The notes beneath the pieces were generated by a model. It was not told where the DNA came from, searched no databases, and saw nothing but the letters and a program-made list of their open reading frames with translations. From Massilia frigida (GTDB taxonomy: Bacteria; Pseudomonadota; Gammaproteobacteria; Burkholderiales; Burkholderiaceae_D): DNA of 64,000 nucleotides. The stretch spans positions 124,001 through 188,000 of the forward strand of contig NZ_WHJG01000001.1 of the NCBI RefSeq assembly GCF_011682175.1. Reading direction: 5' to 3'. A program made the position numbers and the translations under genes. This document shows positions 1-31,229 of the stretch, piece after piece; the stretch's first letter is position 1, and the number at the start of each line of letters is the position of its first letter.

Positions 1-462
1 TTTTTGGATACCTACGCGCTGTACCTGAGCGGGCGCCAGCAGGTGGTGCAGTGCTTCGGCAGCGCACCGACCTTCCATGCCTGTTATATCGACGAGGGCA
101 ACCGCATCGATACCGAAAGAACCGGCGCGCGCCTGCTCGCGCTGTACCAGGAGCGGCTGACGCCCTACACGGCCAATCTCGACAAGGCGGTCGACGCTTT
201 CCTGCGCAACGACCCGGCCGCCATCGCCGCATGCGCCACGGTCAGCGCGGTGCTGGGGCAGGATGCCATCCCCAAGCGCAACCTCGGCGTGCTGCTCAAG
301 AACCAGGCACGCTATGGCGCCGATGGCATCTTCGTCGCGCATACGGGCAGCCTGGCGGGCTACCTCTACATCCACAAACCGGGCCCAACGCAAATGGGGG
401 CACTCTCGTCATTCTTTCGCGGCCTTGGCTATCAAAGCCGCTTCGTACAGACAGGATTCTGA
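1..462 (+). CDS. GHMP-family amino-acid kinase, PduX-like (3' part only)
   Basis: The reading frame is open from the first base, so only the C-terminal 153 residues are present and the start lies to the left of the window. The visible part matches the C-terminal GHMP domain of PduX-type L-threonine kinases: a helical stretch, then the end segment IFVAHTGSLAGYLY, which resembles the AHSG(T/S)xAG motif of PduX. PduX makes O-phospho-L-threonine from ATP and threonine for cobalamin side-chain synthesis. Here the next gene begins 2 bp after the stop and encodes a PLP enzyme of the cysteine-synthase fold, and no cobalamin gene is visible. I therefore infer that the kinase activates a hydroxy amino acid (serine or threonine) for beta-replacement. 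The substrate is not proven, and the ATP-binding loop is outside the window. Confidence 0.7.
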   Translation, partial: FLDTYALYLSGRQQVVQCFGSAPTFHACYIDEGNRIDTERTGARLLALYQERLTPYTANLDKAVDAFLRNDPAAIAACATVSAVLGQDAIPKRNLGVLLKNQARYGADGIFVAHTGSLAGYLYIHKPGPTQMGALSSFFRGLGYQSRFVQTGF

Positions 463-464
463 CC

Positions 465-1472
465 ATGTTCGATCACATTGCGGACGCCATCAAGGCGCCG
501 GACTTCGTACGCCTCGGCCCCAACCTGTATGTCGCCCGTTTCGAGACGATGAAGGTGTATTCAACGCTGGTGGCGGTCGAGCGCTTGCTGGCAGCGGGCG
601 TGATCCGGCGCGGCGACACCCTGCTCGACAGCTCCAGCGGCATCTATGCCTACGCGCTCGCACTGGCATGCCACAAGTTCGACATGCAGTGCCACATCAT
701 CGCCTCGAAAACGGTGGACAAGACGCTGATGGTGCAGCTCCAGCTGCTCGGGGCGAACGTCGAGCAGGTGCCGCCATCGGCCACGCTGAAGATGGATCAG
801 AGCCTGCGCGTGGCGCGCATCCAGGACATCCGCGCGGCCCACCCGCATGTGCACTGGATGCAGCAGTACCACGATGACATTCATTACGCCGGATATGAGC
901 CGATCGCCAGCGAGATCGAACGCCTGCTCGGCACAGATAAGCTGACCATCGTCGGCGGCGTCGGCTCGGGCTGTTCCACCGGCGGCCTGGCGCGCGCGCT
1001 GCGCTGCTCCGACGATGCGGTGGAACTGGTTGGCGTACAGCCGTTCGGCAGTGTCACCTTCGGCTGCGCCCATATCGAAGACCCGGGCATCATCATCGCC
1101 GGCATCGGCACCGGCATCCCCTTTCGCAACGTGCAGCACGCGCTCTACGACCAAATTCACTGGATCGGTTTCGATTACGGGCTGGCAGGCGCGGTGGCCC
1201 TGCTGCGCAGGCACGCGATCTTTGCCGGCCTGTCGAGCGGCTGCTGCTACCTTGCCGCCGCCCGTGAAGCGCAGTTGCGTCCCGAGCGCACGGTGCTGTT
1301 CATCGCGCCCGATACCGGTCACCGCTACGTGGACGCGGTCTTCGCGCAGCACGCGAACGCGCTGGAACTGCATGCGCTGGCGCCCGTCCACGTCGACTCG
1401 CACGAGCAGCTTGTGCTGCCCTGGTCGGTGATGGACTGGAACCGCCGCACCGCCACCGAAACATTCAACTGA
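465..1472 (+). CDS. PLP-dependent beta-replacement enzyme, cysteine synthase / SbnA-like
   Basis: 335-residue fold-type II PLP enzyme. Landmarks in order: the likely Schiff-base lysine in ETMKVYS (near residue 30), the substrate loop SSSGIYAYA (near residue 65, where CysK has TSGNTG), the phosphate-binding glycine loop GGVGSGCSTGG (near 165), and AGLSSGCC near the C-terminus. The frame fits the CysK/SbnA family, but the Asn-Thr of the substrate loop is replaced by Ile-Tyr, so ordinary O-acetylserine sulfhydrylase activity is unlikely. SbnA uses O-phosphoserine with glutamate to build diaminopropionate precursors. The kinase immediately upstream would supply a phospho-amino acid, which suits an SbnA-type reaction here. 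ATG at 465 is preceded by AGGA. The nucleophile is unknown. Confidence 0.72.
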   Translation: MFDHIADAIKAPDFVRLGPNLYVARFETMKVYSTLVAVERLLAAGVIRRGDTLLDSSSGIYAYALALACHKFDMQCHIIASKTVDKTLMVQLQLLGANVEQVPPSATLKMDQSLRVARIQDIRAAHPHVHWMQQYHDDIHYAGYEPIASEIERLLGTDKLTIVGGVGSGCSTGGLARALRCSDDAVELVGVQPFGSVTFGCAHIEDPGIIIAGIGTGIPFRNVQHALYDQIHWIGFDYGLAGAVALLRRHAIFAGLSSGCCYLAAAREAQLRPERTVLFIAPDTGHRYVDAVFAQHANALELHALAPVHVDSHEQLVLPWSVMDWNRRTATETFN

Positions 1473-1490
1473 AAAGGGAGTAATCACACC

Positions 1491-3566
1491 ATGGCACACC
1501 TGTTAATGATCGAGAGCTGGGTCGGTGGCACCGGCCGTATCTTCCCCGCCACCATCACCGGCGCCGGCCACACCTACACCTTCGTGACGCGCAACCGCGG
1601 CCACTATCTGGATGGAGCCGACGCACCGATTCATCCGGTGCTGGCGCACGCCGCCAACGTACTGACGACCGAGACCAACGACGTGCCGGCGCTGATCGCC
1701 TTCCTGCGCGCCCAGCACCGCATGCTCAAATTCGACGGCGTGGTGACCATCTGCGACTACTACATCGACACCGTGGCCCAGGTCGCGCAGGTGCTGGAAC
1801 TGCCGCAGGCGTTTTGCAGCAACGTGGCGATGGTGCGCCGCAAACACCTGGTGCGCGAGGCGCTGGAAAAGGCCGGGCTGCCCAATCCCGTATTCCGCGC
1901 GGTGACGTCGTGGGACGCGGCATGCGAAGCGGCCAACGAGATCGGCTATCCGCTGATCCTCAAGCCGTCGGACCTGGCGTCGAGCGCGTTCGTCAAGCTG
2001 GTCAGGGATGAAGCGGAACTGTACGCCGCCTTCAGCGCGCTGGAAGCATTCCCGGCCAACTTCCGCGAGCAGGCGCGCGAGCCGCTATGGCTGCTGGAAG
2101 AGTACATGAAGGGCGAGGAAGTCAGCGTGGAAGCCTGCACCTTCGGCGGACAGACAAGCATCATCGGCATCACCGACAAGAGCCTGACGGGTTTCCCCTG
2201 TTTTATCGAGGATGGGCATATGTTCCCGGCGCGGCTGGACGGCGACGTGAGCGAAGCGGTGTGCGAGCTGGTGACGGCGGCGTTGCAGGCGGTCGGCTTC
2301 GACCACGGCATCAGCCACACCGAAGTGAAGATCACGCGCAAGGGGCCGCGCATCGTCGAGATCAATCCGCGCCCGGGCGGCAATTACATTGCGGAGCTGA
2401 TCGAGCGGGTGACGGGCATTGCATTCCTGTCCGCCCAGATCGACCTGGCGCTTGGCCGCCAGCCCGACCTTGCGCGCAAGCAGACCGGCGTGCAGAGCGC
2501 CGCCATCAAGTTCCTGGTCCCGGCGGGCGCAGGCCGGGTCAACGCCATGACCGGCATCGACAGCGTCGCCAGCGCGCCGCACGTTGCGCGCGCGCTGATT
2601 GCGAACGTCACCGGCAAGGACCTGGACGCGCCGATCGACAACGCCTGCTACCTGGGCCACGTGGTCGCGGTCGATCCGGACGGCCTGGATGCGCGCAAAT
2701 ATGCGGAGAAGGCACTAAGCCGGGTCGAGATCAGCTTCGCGGACGGCGCCAGGGAGCCGGCCGCGCCGTGGAACGTGGCGGGCCTGATCGACGACGTGCA
2801 GTGTGGCCTGTACGGACCGGCGCCGGAGTCGATGCACGTGGTCGGCGCGTCGTGGATTTCGCAGAGCACGCGTTTCCCGGGCACCCAGCAAACCTACCGC
2901 AACTACTATCTGGTGCTGCGCGTGGGGGCGGCCTTTGGCGCCTGCTGCATCGAACGCGACGCGCTCGACCCGACGATTGCGCCTGCGCTGGCGGGCAGCA
3001 GCGTGGCCGATCTGCTGGCCGATCCGCGCCTACCGGTGCGCATCGCCACGCTCGACGCTTACCTGAATGCGGTGCGGCCACCGCGCGAATCGGCGCTGGC
3101 GCAAGCGATGCTGCTGCCAGCCGGCGCGCCGCCGGTGCGTGCCGTGGCGCGCGACAATGCGATTGCCGCGCTGGTGTCGATCAAGCCGGGCCAGCGTGTG
3201 GGCCTGATCGGCGTGGTCAATCCGCTGGTGGACGCGATCGCGCGGCATGGCGGGATTTGCCTGCCGTGCGACTTCAACATGGACCGCACCCAGAGCGGGC
3301 TGGAAGTGGCGCGCGACATGCTGCCGATCCTGGAGCAGGCCGACATGATCATCGCCACCGGCATGACCTTGTCCAACGGGTCGTTCGACGAGATCCTGAT
3401 GGCGGCGCGGCGGCGCGGCATTCCGCTGATCGTGTACGCACAGACGGGCAGCGGCATCATCCCGCGCTTCCTGGGCGACGGCGTCAGCGCGGTATGCGCC
3501 GAGCCGTTCCCGTTCTCGCAGTTCAGCGCCGATCCGACTTCCGTCTATCTATACCGCGCGCCATGA
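1491..3566 (+). CDS. ATP-grasp ligase fused to DUF4213/DUF364 (putative metal-chelation) domain
   Basis: 691 residues in two parts. Residues 1-400 form an ATP-grasp carboxylate-amine ligase: N-terminal Rossmann-like region, ATP-binding lysine in YPLILKPSD (near 155), LLEEYMKGEEVSVE (near 205), and the metal-binding end EINPRPGGNY (near 285). This resembles L-amino-acid ligases and the ATP-grasp enzymes of dipeptide antibiotic pathways. Residues 430-690 match DUF4213 followed by DUF364: a DUF4213-like strand block near 470-490, then GQRVGLIGVVNPLVDAI and the signature TGMTLSNGSFDEIL. DUF364 is annotated only as a putative heavy-metal chelation domain. ATG at 1491 follows GGGAG. The stop overlaps the next start as ATGA. 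I infer that it condenses the product of the PLP enzyme with another amino acid; the role of the tail is unknown. Confidence 0.75.
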   Translation: MAHLLMIESWVGGTGRIFPATITGAGHTYTFVTRNRGHYLDGADAPIHPVLAHAANVLTTETNDVPALIAFLRAQHRMLKFDGVVTICDYYIDTVAQVAQVLELPQAFCSNVAMVRRKHLVREALEKAGLPNPVFRAVTSWDAACEAANEIGYPLILKPSDLASSAFVKLVRDEAELYAAFSALEAFPANFREQAREPLWLLEEYMKGEEVSVEACTFGGQTSIIGITDKSLTGFPCFIEDGHMFPARLDGDVSEAVCELVTAALQAVGFDHGISHTEVKITRKGPRIVEINPRPGGNYIAELIERVTGIAFLSAQIDLALGRQPDLARKQTGVQSAAIKFLVPAGAGRVNAMTGIDSVASAPHVARALIANVTGKDLDAPIDNACYLGHVVAVDPDGLDARKYAEKALSRVEISFADGAREPAAPWNVAGLIDDVQCGLYGPAPESMHVVGASWISQSTRFPGTQQTYRNYYLVLRVGAAFGACCIERDALDPTIAPALAGSSVADLLADPRLPVRIATLDAYLNAVRPPRESALAQAMLLPAGAPPVRAVARDNAIAALVSIKPGQRVGLIGVVNPLVDAIARHGGICLPCDFNMDRTQSGLEVARDMLPILEQADMIIATGMTLSNGSFDEILMAARRRGIPLIVYAQTGSGIIPRFLGDGVSAVCAEPFPFSQFSADPTSVYLYRAP

Positions 3567-4753
3567 CCGTTCTCTCCGGCCAGGTCCGCAAGCGCGGGCT
3601 CAATGCGCTGCTGGTGTACACCTTCCTGATGGTGGTCGGCTTTGCGATGCTGATGCCGCTGGTGAGCGTGCACTTTGTGAGCAACGCGGGCATGGCCGCA
3701 GCCGTGGTCGGCGGCGCGCTGGCACTGCGCCAGATGACCCAGCAGGGCCTCGCACTGGTGGGCGGCATGCTGGCAGACCGCTTCGGCGTGCGGCCCATGA
3801 TCTGCCTGGGCGTGCTGCTACGCGCGGCCGGCTTTGCCAGCCTGGCGTTCGCCGATGATGCCGTCATGCTGTGCGTGGCGATGGTGGTGTCGGCACTCGG
3901 TGGCGCACTGTTCGAGGCGCCTTACCAGGCGGCGATTGCGGCCCTGACCACCGACGAGACGCGGCCGCGCTACTACGCGCTCAGTAACTGGGTCAGCGGG
4001 ATTGCCAGCACCATTGGCCCGCTGGCCGGCGTGGCGCTGCTGCATGTGGACTTCCAGATGGTGTGCCTGGCTGCGGCCGCGTGCTTCGCGCTCAACTGCG
4101 GCATCACACTGTGGATGCTGCCGCCACTGGAAATCCAGGAGGCTCCGCAGGCCATGACGCACCGTCTCGCCCTGGTGACGCGCGACCGGCCCTTTTTGCT
4201 GTTCACCGGCCTGATGATGGGGTACTGGTTCGTGGCGGTACAGATCAATATCAGCTTTCCGCTGCTGGCCGAACGCCTGAGCGGAAACCAGGATAGCGTG
4301 GGCATCATGTTCGCGCTCAGCGCCGGCATGACGGTGCTGCTGCAATATCACCTGCTGCGGGTGGCGGAGCGCTGGCTGTCGACGCAGCAGATCCTGGTGC
4401 TGGGCGTGACGATCATCGCGCTCGGTGCCGGCGCCATCGCGCTGGCGCATACCTTCACAGCCTTCCTGGTGTGCGTGGCGGCGTTTTCGGTGGGCGCCAT
4501 CCTGGTGCGGCCAACCATGCAGAACCTGATCGCCAGCATGGCCAATCCGCAGGCGCTGGGGACCTTTCTCGGTTTCAGTTCGCTCAGCCTGGCGCTTGGC
4601 GGCGCGATCGGCAATGTGACCGGCGGCTGGCTGGTCGAGTTCTCAAGCGCGCGTCAATGGCCGCAACTGCCGTGGATGATATTTTGCGCGGTCGGGCTCT
4701 TGAGCGCCTTCGGCCTGTTCCGTTTGGCGCCACGCGCGCGGGAGGCCGCATGA
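3563..4753 (+). CDS. MFS drug/metabolite exporter, MdtH-like
   Basis: 396-residue major facilitator protein with about 11-12 hydrophobic segments. The N-terminal half carries ALRQMTQQGLALVGGMLADRFGVRPM, which closely follows the MdtH pattern (LRQ..QQG....GG..ADRFG.KPM), and GFSSLSLALGGAIGN lies near the C-terminus. The ATG lies inside the stop of the ligase gene (ATGA), and its own stop overlaps the start of the membrane-fusion gene in the same way, so the three are translationally coupled. The context suggests export of the compound made by the upstream enzymes, or self-protection against it. A general multidrug role cannot be excluded. I chose 3563 because of the coupling; a start further upstream would lie entirely inside the ligase gene. 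Confidence 0.85.
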   Translation: MTVLSGQVRKRGLNALLVYTFLMVVGFAMLMPLVSVHFVSNAGMAAAVVGGALALRQMTQQGLALVGGMLADRFGVRPMICLGVLLRAAGFASLAFADDAVMLCVAMVVSALGGALFEAPYQAAIAALTTDETRPRYYALSNWVSGIASTIGPLAGVALLHVDFQMVCLAAAACFALNCGITLWMLPPLEIQEAPQAMTHRLALVTRDRPFLLFTGLMMGYWFVAVQINISFPLLAERLSGNQDSVGIMFALSAGMTVLLQYHLLRVAERWLSTQQILVLGVTIIALGAGAIALAHTFTAFLVCVAAFSVGAILVRPTMQNLIASMANPQALGTFLGFSSLSLALGGAIGNVTGGWLVEFSSARQWPQLPWMIFCAVGLLSAFGLFRLAPRAREAA

Positions 4754-5835
4754 ACAAGCAGCAAGCGATTGCGCTGCTGTGCGGCGCGGTGGCCGTGGCC
4801 AGTGCGGCGCGCTACTGGAGCACGCCCGCGCGCGCCCAGGCGGCCCTGCCCTCCCCGCCCGCCATCGTGGTCAATACCGTGGTGGCGGTGGTGCGCGACG
4901 TACCGGTGGAGCTGCGGGCGAATGGCACGGTGACCCCGTCCAGCGTGGTGGACGTGCACGCGCAGACCACCAGCCTGGTGAAGCAAGTGCATATCCGCGA
5001 GGGCCAGTTCGTCAAGGAAGGCCAGCTGCTGTTTTCACTGGACGAGCGTGCCGACCGCGCCGGCGTGGAGCGCGCGCAGGCGCAGGTGATGCGCGACGAG
5101 GCGGCGCTGGCCGGCCTGGAGCTGCGCTACCGGCGCAGCATGGAACTGCTGGAGAAGCAGTTCATCGCCATCAACGCGGTCGATACGCTGCGCAGCGAGG
5201 TCGATGCGGCGCGCGCACTGCTGCGGGCCGACCAGGCAGCGCTGCGGGCCGCATCGGTGGGCGCCAGCTACAACACGATCCGCGCGCCGATGGCGGGCCG
5301 GGTTGGCGCGATCACGGTGTATCCGGGCAGCCTGGTGCAGGTGAGTACCCTGCTTGCCACGGTTACGCGGCTCGATCCGATTGCGGTCGCATTCACCCTG
5401 CCGGAGTCAAACGTGGGCGAACTGCTGGCGGCGCACCAGCGCGGCGCGGTCGCGGTGGAGGCCAACCACCGCACCGGCACGCTGAGCTTCATCGACAACC
5501 GCGTCGACCCGGTGGCCGGGGCGATCCGGGTCAAGGCGAGTTTCGAGAATGGCGACGCCGGCATGTGGCCGGGGCAGTATGTGGACGCGCGCGTCACCGT
5601 GCGCACACTGCGCAGCGCGGTCGTGATTCCGCAGGCGGCGATGATCACCAGCACCGCCGGCACCTTCGTGTATGTGGTGGGGCCGGACCAGACGGTGGCA
5701 CAGGTGGCGGTGAAGCAGCTGCATGCGTTCGGGTCGAGTGCGGCGGTCACCGGCCTGGCAGGCAGCGAAACCATCGTCACCGAGGGCAAGCAGAATCTGA
5801 AGCCCGGTGCGCGCGTCAAGGCGGGCCGGGGATGA
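4750..5835 (+). CDS. RND efflux periplasmic adaptor (membrane fusion protein, HlyD/AcrA family)
   Basis: 361 residues. An N-terminal hydrophobic segment (residues 6-20) acts as signal or anchor. It is followed by the first half of a lipoyl domain (ANGTVTPSSVVDVHA ... VKEGQLLFSLD), a short alpha-helical hairpin (about 95-160), the second lipoyl half (IRAPMAGRVGAITVYPGSLV), and beta-barrel and membrane-proximal domains. This is the normal order for adaptors that link an RND permease in the inner membrane to an outer-membrane channel. The gene overlaps both neighbours by 4 bp (ATGA at 4750 and again at 5832). No outer-membrane factor is encoded nearby, so the pump probably borrows a TolC/OprM-type channel or has its own outside the window. 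Confidence 0.9.
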   Translation: MNKQQAIALLCGAVAVASAARYWSTPARAQAALPSPPAIVVNTVVAVVRDVPVELRANGTVTPSSVVDVHAQTTSLVKQVHIREGQFVKEGQLLFSLDERADRAGVERAQAQVMRDEAALAGLELRYRRSMELLEKQFIAINAVDTLRSEVDAARALLRADQAALRAASVGASYNTIRAPMAGRVGAITVYPGSLVQVSTLLATVTRLDPIAVAFTLPESNVGELLAAHQRGAVAVEANHRTGTLSFIDNRVDPVAGAIRVKASFENGDAGMWPGQYVDARVTVRTLRSAVVIPQAAMITSTAGTFVYVVGPDQTVAQVAVKQLHAFGSSAAVTGLAGSETIVTEGKQNLKPGARVKAGRG

Positions 5836-8800
5836 ACCTGTCCGCCTATTGCATCGAGCGCCCCGTGATGGTGGTGCTGCTGTCGGCCAGCCTGGTGATT
5901 GCCGGGCTGCTGGCATACCGCTTCATTCCCGTGTCCGCGCTACCAAGCTACAACACGCCGGTCATCAACGTGCAGGCCAACCTGCCGGGTGCGAGTCCGG
6001 AAACGATGGCCGCGTCGGTGGCGCTGCCGCTGGAGAAGGAGTTCTCGGCGATTGCCGGCGTCACCTTGCTGACCTCCACCAGCACCCTGGGCGCGACGTC
6101 GCTGACGCTGGAGTTCGGGCCGGCCATCGACATCAATGCCGCCGCGGTGGACGTGCAGGCGGCGCTGCTGCGGGCGCAACGCGCGCTGCCACGGGAAATG
6201 ACCGAGCTGCCGTCGTACCGCAAGGTCAATCCGGCGGAAGCGCCGGTGCTGTCGATGGAGTTGACGTCGCCATCGATGGGCTTGTCGGAGCTGAACGACT
6301 ACGCGGAGAACCTGATTGCGCCAGGCTTGTCGGGCCTGCCCGGCGTGGCGCAGATGACGGTACTGGGCCAGAAGCGCTTCGCCGTGCGGGTGCGCGCCCA
6401 TCCCGGCCGCATGAAGGCGCGCGACCTGTCGATGGATGAACTGGCGGCCGCGCTGCAAGCGGCCAACGCCAATACGCCGCTCGGTGTGCTGGACGGGCCG
6501 GCCCAGACCATGGTTATCCAGGGTAACGCGCAACTGCTCAAGGCAGCCGACTATGCCGGGTTGATCGTGGCCATGCGCGCAGGCCAGCCGGTGCGCCTTG
6601 GCGACGTGGCCGACGTCGAGGACAGCTACCAGTCGGTGCGCTCGGCCAGCAGTTTTAACGGCGAGCGCTCGATCGTGCTGCTGCTGTACCGGCAGCCGGA
6701 TGCGAATACCCTGGCCGTGGTCGACGCGGCCAGGCGCACGCTCGAACGCATGCGCACGCAGTTGCCGCAATCGGTGGCGATCAATATGGTCAACGACCGT
6801 TCGGTATCGGTGCGCGAGGCGATGCATGACGTGAATGTCACGCTCGGGCTGACCATCGCGCTGGTGATCCTGGTGATCGTTTTGTTCCTGCGCCATGCGG
6901 CAGCGACCCTGATCCCGGCGCTGGCGATTCCAATTTCCCTGCTTGGCGCGCTGCTGCTGATGCACTGGCTCGGCTACAGCCTGAATAATGTCTCGCTACT
7001 GGGGATCACCCTGGCCGTGGGGCTGGTGGTGGACGATGCGATTGTCGTGCTGGAGAATATCGTGCGCCATATCGAGGCGGGCAAGACCCCGGTTGATGCC
7101 GCCATCACCGGGGCGCGCGAAGTGAGCCTGACCATCGTGTCGATCTCGATCTCGCTGGCGGCAGTGTTCATGCCGGTCTTCTTCATGCCGGGGGTGATGG
7201 GATTGCTGTTCCACGAGTTTGCCGTGGTGGTGTCGCTGGCGGTACTGGTGTCGGCGCTGGTGTCGCTGACGCTGGTGCCGATGCTGTCGAGCCGACTGCT
7301 GACTGAACATGAACGTCACGGCACAGCCACCAATACCGCCTTCGGGCGCGTCGAAAGGGCGTATGCGAGATCGCTCGACAAGGCGCTCGCACACCGGCCC
7401 ATGGTGCTGCTGGCGGCACTGGCCCTTCTGGTGCTGACGGTGGGGCTGTATGTGGCCATTCCCAAGGGCCTGCTGCCGGAAGAGGACCTGGGCCAGATCC
7501 GCGTGTCGACCGAGGCATCGGAAGATATATCGCCCTCCGCCATGCTGGCACTGCAAGTGAAGGTGGCGGCGGCAATCAAGGCCGATCCGAATGTGCGCGA
7601 TGTGACGTCGTCGGTCAGCGGCGACAACAGCGGCAGCCTGTTCCTGCTGCTGAAACCACGCGGGCAGCGCGCGCCGATGGCCGATGTGATCGCGAGCCTG
7701 AAACGCGCCACCAGCGCGATTGCCGGCGTGGCCGTGTATGTCAAGCCCGTACAGAATTTCCAGGTGGGCGGACGGCCGAGCAAGAGCCGCTACCAGTACA
7801 CGCTGCAAAGCGTGGGTGCCGGCGGTCCCGATGAATGGGCAGCGCGTTTCCTGGAGCGGATGCGGGCCGACCCGCGCTTTAGCGACGTGACCAGCGATGC
7901 GCGCAACCGCGGCTTGCAGGCGAGCTTGAAGATCGACCGCGACAAGGCGGCGGTGCTGGGCGTGCGGGTCGCCGATCTGCGCAGCGCTCTGTATTCGGCC
8001 TTTGGCGAGCGCCAGGTGGCGACCATGTACGGGACGGGCGCCACCTATTCGGTCATCCTCGAATCGGTGCAGGCCGAGCGCCAGTTCGACGATGCGCTGG
8101 GCCATGTGTCGGTGCGCAGCAAGGCGGGTGAGCTGGTGAACGTGTCGAGCTTTGCGACGGTGGAGCGAACGCTGGGGCCCTTGTCGGTCAATCACCAGGG
8201 GCAGCTGCAAGCGATCACGCTGTCGTTCAACCTGGCGCCCGGCGTGGCGCTGGATGCGGCGACCGGCGCCATTGATGCCATGGGGCGGGACATGCGGCTG
8301 CCGGCGTCCATCGTGGCGCATTATGGCGGCGACGCGGCGGTGTTCCAGGAGGCGCAATCGAGCCAGGTATGGCTGATCGTGGCCGCGCTCGGGGTGATCT
8401 ACATCCTGCTCGGGGTACTGTACGAGAGCTATATTCACCCGCTGACCATCCTGGCCGGGTTGCCATCGGCGGCGGTTGGCGCGCTGCTGACCTTATGGCT
8501 GTCCGGGATGGAGCTGACCATGATTGCGGTGATCGGCATGTTGCTGCTGATCGGGATCGTGAAGAAGAACGCCATCATGATCATCGACTTTGCGCTTCAC
8601 TTGCAGCGCGAGGAAGGCATGGCGCCGGACCTGGCGGTGCGGCAGGCTTGCCTGCTACGCTTCCGGCCGATCATGATGACGACGATTGCGGCGCTGATGG
8701 GTGCCCTGCCGATTGCGCTGGGATGGGGCGCGGGGGCCGAGCTGCGCCAGCCGCTGGGACTTGCGGTGGTCGGGGGACTGGCGTTTTCGCAGCTGGTTAC

Positions 8801-8924
8801 GCTGTATGTGACGCCGGTGATGTACCTGGCGCTGGACCGGTTTGAGTGCAAGACGAAGCGTCGGCGGGAGAAACCGGCGCGGGCCGGACGCCGTGATTGC
8901 GTTGTTGGCGAGACGGTCCTTTGA
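5832..8924 (+). CDS. RND efflux permease, MdtB/MdtC-like (AcrB family)
   Basis: 1030 residues, the usual length for an AcrB/MdtC-type proton antiporter. TM1 begins at once (IERPVMVVLL), followed by the porter-domain opening LPGASPETMAASVA. TM4 carries the proton-relay pair in GLVVDDAIVVLENI, and TM10 has the conserved lysine in GIVKKNAIMIIDFA. The sequence is closer to MdtB/MdtC and other drug or metabolite pumps than to CusA metal pumps, since I see no methionine metal-relay set. It is the last gene of the left-hand cluster. A 9-bp hairpin lies just past its stop, before the convergent DoxX gene. It probably exports the cluster product or provides self-resistance; the substrate is inferred from context only. 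Confidence 0.9.
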   Translation: MNLSAYCIERPVMVVLLSASLVIAGLLAYRFIPVSALPSYNTPVINVQANLPGASPETMAASVALPLEKEFSAIAGVTLLTSTSTLGATSLTLEFGPAIDINAAAVDVQAALLRAQRALPREMTELPSYRKVNPAEAPVLSMELTSPSMGLSELNDYAENLIAPGLSGLPGVAQMTVLGQKRFAVRVRAHPGRMKARDLSMDELAAALQAANANTPLGVLDGPAQTMVIQGNAQLLKAADYAGLIVAMRAGQPVRLGDVADVEDSYQSVRSASSFNGERSIVLLLYRQPDANTLAVVDAARRTLERMRTQLPQSVAINMVNDRSVSVREAMHDVNVTLGLTIALVILVIVLFLRHAAATLIPALAIPISLLGALLLMHWLGYSLNNVSLLGITLAVGLVVDDAIVVLENIVRHIEAGKTPVDAAITGAREVSLTIVSISISLAAVFMPVFFMPGVMGLLFHEFAVVVSLAVLVSALVSLTLVPMLSSRLLTEHERHGTATNTAFGRVERAYARSLDKALAHRPMVLLAALALLVLTVGLYVAIPKGLLPEEDLGQIRVSTEASEDISPSAMLALQVKVAAAIKADPNVRDVTSSVSGDNSGSLFLLLKPRGQRAPMADVIASLKRATSAIAGVAVYVKPVQNFQVGGRPSKSRYQYTLQSVGAGGPDEWAARFLERMRADPRFSDVTSDARNRGLQASLKIDRDKAAVLGVRVADLRSALYSAFGERQVATMYGTGATYSVILESVQAERQFDDALGHVSVRSKAGELVNVSSFATVERTLGPLSVNHQGQLQAITLSFNLAPGVALDAATGAIDAMGRDMRLPASIVAHYGGDAAVFQEAQSSQVWLIVAALGVIYILLGVLYESYIHPLTILAGLPSAAVGALLTLWLSGMELTMIAVIGMLLLIGIVKKNAIMIIDFALHLQREEGMAPDLAVRQACLLRFRPIMMTTIAALMGALPIALGWGAGAELRQPLGLAVVGGLAFSQLVTLYVTPVMYLALDRFECKTKRRREKPARAGRRDCVVGETVL

Positions 8925-29412: not shown

Positions 29413-29488
29413 TGGCAGGGACGGAGGGCATCGAACCCCCAACCTTCGGTTTTGGAGACCGACGCTCTGCCAATTGAGCTACGTCCCT
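29413..29488 (-). tRNA. tRNA-Trp (CCA)
   Basis: 76 nt including an encoded CCA end. Acceptor AGGGACG pairs with CGTCCCT; the D arm, anticodon loop CTCCAAA (anticodon CCA at 29453-29455) and TTCGATG T loop are all present. It lies between tuf and secE, the standard place in this operon. Confidence 0.97.
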
Positions 29489-29513
29489 ACGTAAAACTTC
29501 AGTGGAATCAGCA

Positions 29514-29543
29514 ATTATACCATCGTCCGGCCGCTGATGGCAA
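29514..29543 (-). promoter_or_regulatory. Promoter of the tRNA-Trp-secE-nusG transcript
   Basis: On the minus strand: TTGCCA, an 18-bp spacer, then TATAAT with an extended TGG in front of the -10. Transcription would start about 20 bp before the tRNA-Trp 5' end. Confidence 0.75.
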
Positions 29544-29596
29544 GCTGCTGATTTCGGCGGAGCGCCGGACGGAGAGTCCGGGCTCGCCCTAACTAA

Positions 29597-30802
29597 TTAC
29601 TTGCCAGCGACTTCGCTGAGAATCTTTGCAACAACACCTGCACCAACGGTACGGCCACCTTCGCGGATGGCGAAACGCAGGCCTTCTTCCATCGCGATCG
29701 GGTTGATCAGCTTGACGGTGATCGACACGTTATCGCCTGGCATAACCATTTCTTTGTCCGCTGGCAACTCGATCGAACCAGTCACGTCCGTCGTACGGAA
29801 GTAGAACTGTGGACGATAGTTGTTGAAGAACGGGGTGTGACGGCCGCCTTCGTCTTTCGACAGGACATAGATCTCGCCGGTGAAGTGATTGTGCGGCTTG
29901 ATCGAGTTTGGCTTGGCCAGAACCTGGCCACGCTGCACGTCTTCACGCTTGGTGCCGCGCAACAGCAGACCGACGTTGTCGCCAGCTTGACCCTGGTCCA
30001 GCAGCTTGCGGAACATTTCCACGCCGGTGCAAGTGGTCTTGACGGTGTCGGAGATGCCGACGATTTCGATTTCTTCGCCAACTTTAACAACACCGCGCTC
30101 GATACGGCCGGTCACAACGGTGCCGCGACCCGAGATCGAGAACACGTCTTCCACAGGCATCAGGAAGGCGCCGTCGATTGCGCGCTCTGGCGTCGGGATG
30201 TAGGTGTCGAGTGCGTCGGCCAGGGCCATGATCGCCACTTCGCCCATTTCGCCGGTATTGCCTTCGAGGGCCATACGTGCCGAACCCTTGATGATTGGCA
30301 GGTCGTCGCCTGGGAACTCGTATTTCGACAAGAGCTCACGCACTTCCATTTCAACCAGTTCCAGCAGTTCTGCGTCGTCGACCAGGTCGCACTTGTTCAG
30401 GAACACGATGATGTAAGGAACGCCAACCTGGCGTGCCAGCAGGATGTGCTCGCGGGTCTGTGGCATTGGGCCGTCAGCTGCGGAGCAAACCAGGATCGCG
30501 CCATCCATCTGTGCTGCGCCGGTGATCATGTTCTTGATGTAATCGGCGTGGCCTGGGCAGTCAACGTGAGCGTAGTGGCGGTTAGCCGTTTCGTACTCGA
30601 CGTGAGCGGTGTTGATGGTGATGCCGCGCGCTTTTTCTTCTGGTGCTGCATCGATCTGGTCGTATGCTTTTGCTTCGCCGCCGAATTTCTTCGACAGAAC
30701 GGTTGCGATAGCTGCCGTCAGGGTGGTCTTGCCGTGATCAACGTGTCCGATGGTACCGACGTTGACGTGCGGCTTGGTCCGTTCGAATTTACCTTTTGCC
30801 AT
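29597..30802 (-). CDS. tuf: Elongation factor Tu
   Basis: 401 residues. The GTPase motifs are intact: GHVDHGKTT (P loop), DCPGH (switch II), NKCD and GSA. Domains 2 and 3 are complete, ending [14 protein letters not shown]. The tail SEVAGK is about five residues longer than the usual betaproteobacterial end. EF-Tu carries aminoacyl-tRNA to the ribosome. It is co-transcribed with the three tRNAs upstream, the typical tufB arrangement; a second tuf copy is expected elsewhere but is not in this window. Confidence 0.99.
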
Positions 30803-30896
30803 TTTAGACTCCTAACGATTTTGAGTGTGACCAGGCACGCGCCTGACTAACTATTGAATACTGCGACTGTTGCGTATGCCGTGAGGCATTGAATTC

Positions 30897-30971
<75 letters not shown>

Positions 30972-31029
30972 GATTATGTATTACGATTTTGCGATCTTGC
31001 TGCCACCGATCGCGCATTGCATGAAGCAC

Positions 31030-31103
31030 TGGAGCGGGTGAAGGGAATCGAACCCTCGTCGTAAGCTTGGAAGGCTTCTGCTCTACCATTGAGCTACACC
31101 CGC
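31030..31103 (-). tRNA. tRNA-Gly (TCC)
   Basis: 74 nt with encoded CCA. Acceptor GCGGGTG pairs with CACCCGC; anticodon loop CTTCCAA with anticodon TCC at 31069-31071. Second tRNA of the tuf operon. Confidence 0.96.
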
Positions 31104-31144
31104 GAGTTACTACTTCACCGACTACAACATCTTCTGCAACAACT

Positions 31145-31229
<85 letters not shown>

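Follow-up and report, generated by a model that had tools for sequence, protein, structure and literature searches.

A kinase and PLP-enzyme operon of Massilia frigida that probably makes a metallophore, with zinc as the likely metal

What is made by a compact operon that joins a PduX-type GHMP kinase, a pyridoxal phosphate (PLP) enzyme, an ATP-grasp ligase and two kinds of exporter? This question is raised by the left end of a stretch of Massilia frigida DNA (assembly GCF_011682175.1, contig NZ_WHJG01000001.1, positions 124,001 to 188,000 of the forward strand), whose whole length of 64,000 nucleotides is referred to as the window. We consider it probable that its product is an exported metallophore, taken up again through the TonB receptor and ABC-2 transporter encoded next to the operon, and that zinc is the most likely target in this Massilia. 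Context and regulation give good support to the metallophore part; zinc as the metal is likely, judging from sequence sites at the promoters.

The operon begins outside the window. In L009, a stretch of the same contig that includes sequence to the left (window position equals L009 position minus 12000), the whole kinase gene spans L009:11515-12462, that is, about -485 to 462 in the window, with a provisional start codon. Its 3' part fills 1..462 of the plus strand. The five genes that follow on the same strand encode an SbnA/CysK-like PLP enzyme of the PALP fold (465..1472), a fusion protein whose first 425 residues or so are an ATP-grasp ligase with LAL_C2 and whose remainder, to about residue 691, is DUF364 (1491..3566), a predicted MFS exporter (3563..4753), an RND periplasmic adaptor (4750..5835) and an RND permease (5832..8924). 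The exporter set is one MFS protein plus one RND adaptor/permease pair. Kinase and PLP genes are 2 bp apart, PLP and ligase genes 18 bp, and the other three of the five junctions are 4-bp overlaps. A preliminary description of the window had given this gene order and tight packing, together with a PduX-like kinase and an SbnA-like enzyme, and all of these are borne out.

Pfam places the kinase in GHMP_kinases_N (28.0 bits, cut-off 22.3), the PLP enzyme in PALP (108.4 bits) and the ligase in ATP-grasp_4 (76.9 bits) and LAL_C2 (57.7 bits). The C-terminal part of the ligase matches DUF364 (PF04016) at 34.0 bits, against a gathering cut-off of 23, and a single-domain DUF364 relative in locus L015 reaches 40.7 bits. 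The exporters match MFS_1 (122.7 bits), HlyD_3 (51.3 bits) and ACR_tran (929.7 bits). NCBIfam assigns the adaptor to the RND_mfp subfamily; its nearest models for the MFS protein and the permease are MdtH and MdtC, each scoring under its cut-off. Among NCBIfam models the ligase comes closest to a long family named argininosuccinate lyase, whose N-terminal part it matches at 209.2 bits (cut-off 625); we take that family to be an ATP-grasp-lyase fusion. A PDB search with the kinase gave no significant match (best E = 0.39), and one with a single-domain DUF364 protein gave a DUF364 structure as its sole match (E = 0.78).

To the left of the kinase lies a divergent Fur-family regulator gene (L009:10943-11377, minus strand); the Massilia genome has three Fur-family genes. 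Beside it, Pfam identifies an ABC ATPase and two ABC-2 permeases with DUF3526 (L009:7343-10892, plus strand) and, divergent from these, a TonB receptor (L009:5070-7259). Two M28 peptidase genes stand further left. The adjoining genes are of metal-uptake type, not cobalamin or housekeeping genes. The intergenic region of the kinase and Fur-family genes carries a 22-bp site, TAATGATAATGCATTATCGTTA, and the receptor/ABC region carries TAATGAGAACTTATTATCAATA on the other strand. A degenerate consensus of both sites has no third match in the 7.79-Mb genome at up to 3 mismatches, and a reversed-pattern control gave 0 matches; an early pattern with the wrong spacing gave three weak matches elsewhere in the genome. 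The divergent Fur-family protein, with a metal as its presumed ligand, would repress both divergent promoters through this operator.

The Massilia operator fits the actinobacterial Zur consensus, taaTGaNAANNNTTNtCANta in the excerpted text of PMC5472717, with one extra central base. In a plus-strand scan, both sites lie 1 mismatch from the 22-base form of this consensus in L009 and in the named Massilia loci L011-L014, and likewise in the near relative L110. At the same two promoters of L109, which has the same gene order in a second genus, the sites are weaker, with 3 and 2 mismatches.

How far does this arrangement extend? Protein searches at E <= 0.001, with 8000 candidates scored for each query, gave 570 relatives for the ligase and 1391 for the PLP enzyme. 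Relatives are encoded by 490 genome-contig stretches, the best 80 of which were fetched and examined. In the family of the window's organism the PLP gene is rare, occurring in 7 of 245 genomes at E <= 1e-60, six of them in the genus itself. By tblastn, 74 of the 80 loci keep the kinase gene immediately before the PLP gene, so the pairing exceeds chance; two Kribbella and three Amycolatopsis loci lack it there, and contig L044 begins at the PLP gene. With this linkage, and with metal-uptake-type genes on the left, neither of the outcomes that the preliminary description had named as its refutation is seen. The RND pair is found by the same method in four Massilia loci only, and in L109 no RND genes follow the MFS gene in the stretch read.

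We sort the loci into layouts, with counts that come from tblastn and depend on its thresholds; the gene caller missed or mis-started genes, such as the PLP gene in several loci. Layout A, with 18 loci from Massilia, Lysobacter, Rhodanobacteraceae, Sphingomonas and others, has the ligase and DUF364 throughout (18/18 each). The TonB receptor and the ABC-2 genes are both present in all 18, the layout being defined by having either; they are divergent in the four Massilia loci and run in the same direction in the other 14. Layout C/E comprises 26 actinobacterial loci with DUF364 (26/26) and no ligase, accompanied by a FecCD-type importer in 24. An Opp-type importer occurs in two Kribbella loci of this layout and in L062. 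Layout B contains 28 loci with ligase and kinase and no DUF364; L031 was set aside from it, having the layout-A ligase, DUF364 and MFS gene on a 9.8-kb contig. Layout D consists of three Amycolatopsis loci with ligase and FecCD and no kinase. L032, L038, L044 and L060 fall outside all layouts.

Several clusters lie on plasmids according to NCBI annotation: a layout-B cluster of Streptomyces clavifer that also has metE and a ferric-reductase-like gene, a layout-C cluster of Streptomyces sp. SGAir0924 and one of Tsukamurella (DUF364, MFS, PLP enzyme and importer). In the Kribbella loci L043 (5174-9989) and L082, an Opp/Nik-type ABC importer stands in place of FecCD, and the kinase was not detected. 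L062, from Streptomyces huiliensis, has SbnB-like (OCD family) and cysteine-synthase-like genes near its layout-C cluster (L062:16623-20989); boxes matching an IdeR consensus lie just upstream of this row. Some actinobacterial loci are joined by methyltransferase-like genes of two different clusters (L038:5299-6039 and L042:7470-8207, the second only weak in Pfam), which may methylate the product. On a Tabrizicola plasmid typed as conjugative, SET-domain, GHMP kinase, PLP-enzyme, DMT transporter and alanine racemase genes form a row (L103:1124-6128). The PLP enzyme of L024, a record titled Bacillus sp. 2B10, is sister to a Sphingomonas one in the tree, and the record is probably misnamed or contaminated.

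Zur-type sites recur in these relatives. Upstream of the receptor in the 14 layout-A loci outside Massilia, a de novo search returned the palindromic motif AAATGttATaatATaaCATTT, with a high score in 12 of the 14. At width 21 its log-likelihood is 181.2, against 32.5 in one letter shuffle; half of the 14 loci are Lysobacter, so they are not independent. In L016 a site of this kind lies a little further upstream, and in L022 the receptor reaches the end of the stretch. The motif resembles the Zur sites of Caulobacter znuK and znuGHI in the excerpts of PMC4176598. A Zur site with at most 3 mismatches is present in 23 of the 26 layout-C/E loci, and over all loci the Zur consensus has 43 matches at up to 4 mismatches, compared with 4.7 in Markov-shuffled sequence. 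(Controls were single letter shuffles for some motif scans and three Markov shuffles for the scans with the Zur consensus and its 22-base form.) Altogether, 39 of the 45 DUF364 loci carry a Zur-type site: 12/14 in layout A outside Massilia, 4/4 in Massilia, 23/26 in C/E and 0/1 for L031. The metallophore reading of the preliminary description fits the receptor, importer, regulator and these metal-responsive sites.

Several observations weigh against zinc, or against a returned chelator. Over all loci, the 22-base form with up to 4 mismatches allowed has 13 matches, compared with 6.7 after shuffling; this is little above chance, and the Massilia sites, at 1 mismatch, account for 10 of the 13. 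The Fur-family protein scores about equally against Fur and Zur structures and, in our reading of the alignment, has no cysteine at the metal-site cysteine of Streptomyces coelicolor Zur; by its sequence it is not clearly a Zur. The operator is also Fur-box-like: with up to 5 mismatches allowed, a Fur consensus has 19 matches where one shuffle gives 0, and every one of the 16 matches listed lies at a Zur-consensus site. Outside Massilia, the layout-A receptor runs with the ABC-2 genes, unlike the divergent Caulobacter layout. Zur sites could serve the import of free zinc alone. Finally, G001, a genome of the second genus with the cluster, has ZnuA. This Massilia genome has none, but we reject that as support, because 162 of the 245 genomes of the family also lack ZnuA and the absence is weak evidence.

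Is the product then a siderophore for iron, held under a Fur-like repressor? We regard this as unlikely. The GATAAT/ATTATC operator halves resemble a Fur box, a Fur consensus matches the sites, the regulator resembles Fur structures about as much as Zur structures, and FecCD-type importers stand beside most actinobacterial relatives, two of these permeases being annotated by NCBI as iron permeases. On the other hand, the operator consensus lacks a match elsewhere in the genome, unlike what a global Fur regulon would give, and a site of such a regulon is disfavoured for this 22-mer. Moreover, the Zur boxes at Lysobacter-type loci are of the gamma type, and layout-C loci fit the Streptomyces Zur consensus defined by chromatin immunoprecipitation. 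Boxes of the IdeR consensus number 5, against 4 in one shuffle, with none at a kinase-PLP cluster. A zinc metallophore remains our preferred reading for Massilia.

A different signal marks the relatives that have the ligase without DUF364. A cobalamin riboswitch is present in 24 of these 31 loci. A B12-box pattern lies upstream of the kinase in 22 layout-B loci, and Rfam confirmed a cobalamin riboswitch in all nine B12-box loci scanned (L035, L040, L045, L049, L050, L053, L056, L070, L081); six of them (L040, L045, L049, L050, L056, L070) have a second riboswitch before an operon of substrate-binding-protein and FecCD genes. In L027 and L028 the riboswitch lies upstream of a FecCD gene (35.3 and 42.5 bits; gathering cut-off 31.5). 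The Rfam scan gave no cobalamin riboswitch in L030, L033, L038, L044, L048, L051, L060, L069, L079 and L080, and none in 14 Massilia, layout-A and C/E loci scanned, L009 among them. A de novo motif in the layout-B leader was rejected as a protein-binding site, as it adjoins the aptamer downstream (in L049, motif at about 8904 and aptamer at 8661-8885).

DUF364 (45 loci) and the riboswitch (24 loci) overlap in 0 of the 80 loci, with a Fisher test p of 2.6e-12 when related loci are treated as independent. In the PLP-enzyme tree, loci with DUF364 are labelled Zn and those with the riboswitch Co, neither label being a measured metal, and the long branches L032 and L033 meet. On this tree 4 label changes suffice for DUF364 and 2 for the riboswitch. 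The association amounts to a handful of events because the tree takes so few changes. Genes for reduction follow the same division. Twenty loci, namely 19 with the riboswitch and L048, have a ferric-reductase-like gene. FhuF-like genes occur in five loci and ferredoxin-like genes in nine, both kinds always with the riboswitch; none of the three kinds occurs in a DUF364 locus. A reductase would suit cobalt, a metal that may be bound as Co(III), but would not suit zinc.

Our best reading, from sequence, is that the metallophore serves zinc in Massilia, Lysobacter and some actinobacteria, and cobalt in a Streptomyces branch. The Streptomyces relatives linked to a B12 sensor point to cobalt; they lie outside the window and form the most surprising part of the analysis. 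We tentatively propose, with somewhat less than even confidence, that a PduX-type kinase and a PALP-fold enzyme define an undescribed and widespread metallophore class. Its DUF364 branch would bind zinc under Zur-type control, with DUF364 setting the zinc preference; its branch with the ligase and without DUF364 would contain the first dedicated cobalt metallophore, controlled by riboswitches, and the reductase-like genes could free cobalt from Co(III).

What chemistry could these enzymes carry out? The motifs GE..QG, SS..D and AH.G are common to the kinase, an annotated Salmonella PduX and a kinase of a cobalamin operon. Among eight sequences (the Massilia rubra orthologue, PduX, the Peptoclostridium cobalamin-operon kinase and five cluster kinases), 23 columns are invariant, one being the start methionine. 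The M. rubra kinase is 22% identical to PduX, which tblastn reaches only at E = 0.1. Because the kinase has columns in common with PduX, its product is likely a phosphorylated hydroxy amino acid, from threonine or serine. In the PLP enzyme, K30, the presumed PLP lysine, is invariant in 17 aligned sequences, and a distinctive SSSGIYAYALA stretch sits at what we take to be the position of the CysK/SbnA substrate loop. SbnA is the nearest NCBIfam model, although the enzyme scores 125.8 bits against the TIGR03945 cut-off of 349.95; for the dapdiamide A synthase DdaF (NF041595), the score is 35.4 bits against 840.

The preliminary description had the phosphate replaced to give a 2,3-diamino-type residue. 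Known routes to such residues need a second enzyme, either an SbnB-like dehydrogenase or an argininosuccinate-lyase-like lyase, and we found neither as a partner in these clusters. An ArgH-type lyase was detected in 0 of the 80 loci (tblastn at E up to 1e-5, queried with the L104 lyase alone). An SbnB-like dehydrogenase was detected in 1 of the 80 (tblastn, one query), namely in the query's own L062, where it lies beyond a transporter operon on the other strand; the scanned genes at the Massilia locus include none. Together with the SbnA and DdaF scores, these results give no support to release of such a residue. We suggest another course. The kinase would phosphorylate the hydroxyl of L-threonine or L-serine; the PLP enzyme would then eliminate the phosphate and let a second amino acid add to the beta carbon through its amino group. 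The adduct would be retained as an aminopolycarboxylate-type ligand, because no lyase or dehydrogenase was found to cleave it, and it may itself be the chelator. An adduct kept in this way would resemble ethylenediaminedisuccinate (EDDS) or aspergillomarasmine. The ATP-grasp ligase would attach a further amino acid, DUF364 would carry out a modification that goes with zinc, and the MFS and RND proteins, by the predicted direction of transport, would export the product. What the sequence itself shows is the gene content, the linkage, the operator sites and the conserved neighbours; the catalytic steps, the metal, the regulator's ligand and the transport direction are inferred from these.

The role given to DUF364 is consistent with what is reported of the family. 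According to the excerpts of PMC2954201, structure and genome context led to the proposal that DUF364 takes part in chelator synthesis beside metal transporters; the words 'kinase' and 'cysteine synthase' have 0 occurrences in its main text. In the part of the paper that we consulted, the family has solved structures and its reaction is not known.

The preliminary description allowed for either a metallophore or an antibiotic-like dipeptide, and the first of these stands. The second, a dapdiamide-like diamino-acid dipeptide with pumps for self-protection, seems improbable. Dapdiamide clusters have ATP-grasp ligases, and the Massilia operon has MFS and RND exporters. SbnA-like enzymes are also found in dapdiamide clusters, as described in the excerpts of PMC3179956. 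However, a diamino-releasing partner, SbnB-like or lyase, was not found at the Massilia locus; TonB receptor and importer genes adjoin the operon; and most relatives have Zur-type sites or B12 riboswitches. A role for the kinase and the genes around it in cobalamin metabolism, making threonine phosphate for the aminopropanol linker or in corrinoid salvage, is very improbable. In its favour, the kinase is related to PduX and a cob-operon kinase, and layout-B loci mostly lie behind cobalamin riboswitches. Against it, the 14 layout-A, Massilia and C/E loci scanned lack the riboswitch and mostly have Zur-type sites, and no cobalamin-synthesis gene was found among the conserved neighbours scanned by family. 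Neither an ATP-grasp ligase nor an MFS exporter belongs to that pathway as generally known. For Massilia the role was rejected on the left-hand genes, which are not cob genes, and on L009, which has no riboswitch.

Elsewhere in the window, four tRNA genes lie on the minus strand at 29413-31229 (Trp; then Thr, Gly and Tyr close together).

If the metallophore reading is true, searches keyed to nonribosomal peptide synthetases (NRPS), to NRPS-independent siderophore synthetases or to opines would overlook this class. The known classes of zinc-scavenging molecules are few. The gene set offers a biosynthetic logic, a setting for DUF364 and a comparison of two metal branches with a common core. No description of it was found in open-licence PMC papers among the matches listed, subscription papers and preprints lying outside that scope, and it may be described in print elsewhere. 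None of the open-licence PMC papers searched contains 'cobaltophore' or 'cobalt metallophore'.

The nearest known systems each share a part of this arrangement. EDDS synthesis includes a cysteine-synthase-like step, and we know of no PduX-type kinase, ATP-grasp or DUF364 protein in it. [S,S]-EDDS of Amycolatopsis japonicum is a small chelator repressed by zinc through Zur, as is proposed for the Massilia product, and aspartate is named as a precursor in the excerpts of PMC9252823. The opine zincophores staphylopine and pseudopaline embody the idea proposed here, as zinc-responsive, secreted amino-acid-derived chelators with export and import genes (PMC7438024, in excerpt). They differ from the Massilia locus, where a Pfam scan of 17 genes gave no match for a nicotianamine-synthase-like protein or an opine dehydrogenase. 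The terms DUF364, ATP-grasp, cysteine synthase, Lysobacter and Massilia occur 0 times in PMC7438024, which surveys opine zincophores. The SbnA/SbnB module for L-2,3-diaminopropionate in staphyloferrin B has a PLP enzyme of the same fold, the nearest profile and, by sequence likeness, a comparable beta-replacement chemistry; by comparison, Massilia has a dedicated kinase, lacks a detected SbnB partner and stays under the SbnA cut-off. Clusters on a rhizobial symbiosis-type plasmid (L102:7815-12655) and a Sulfuriferula plasmid (L104:7911-16891) have homologous kinase, PLP-enzyme and ATP-grasp genes at 25-32% identity and appear to be a sister pathway. They add a lyase (annotated as a lyase family protein or argH) not found in the Massilia set, as would be expected if aspartate were the nitrogen donor and fumarate were released. 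Similar in its transport genes, by arrangement, is the Zur-repressed znuK-znuGHI set of Caulobacter (PMC4176598, in excerpt), with a TonB receptor, an ABC-2 ATPase and two permeases, which in Massilia take the same divergent layout with a site between them. Coupled genes for biosynthesis and export, unmentioned in the excerpts of PMC4176598, set the Massilia locus apart.

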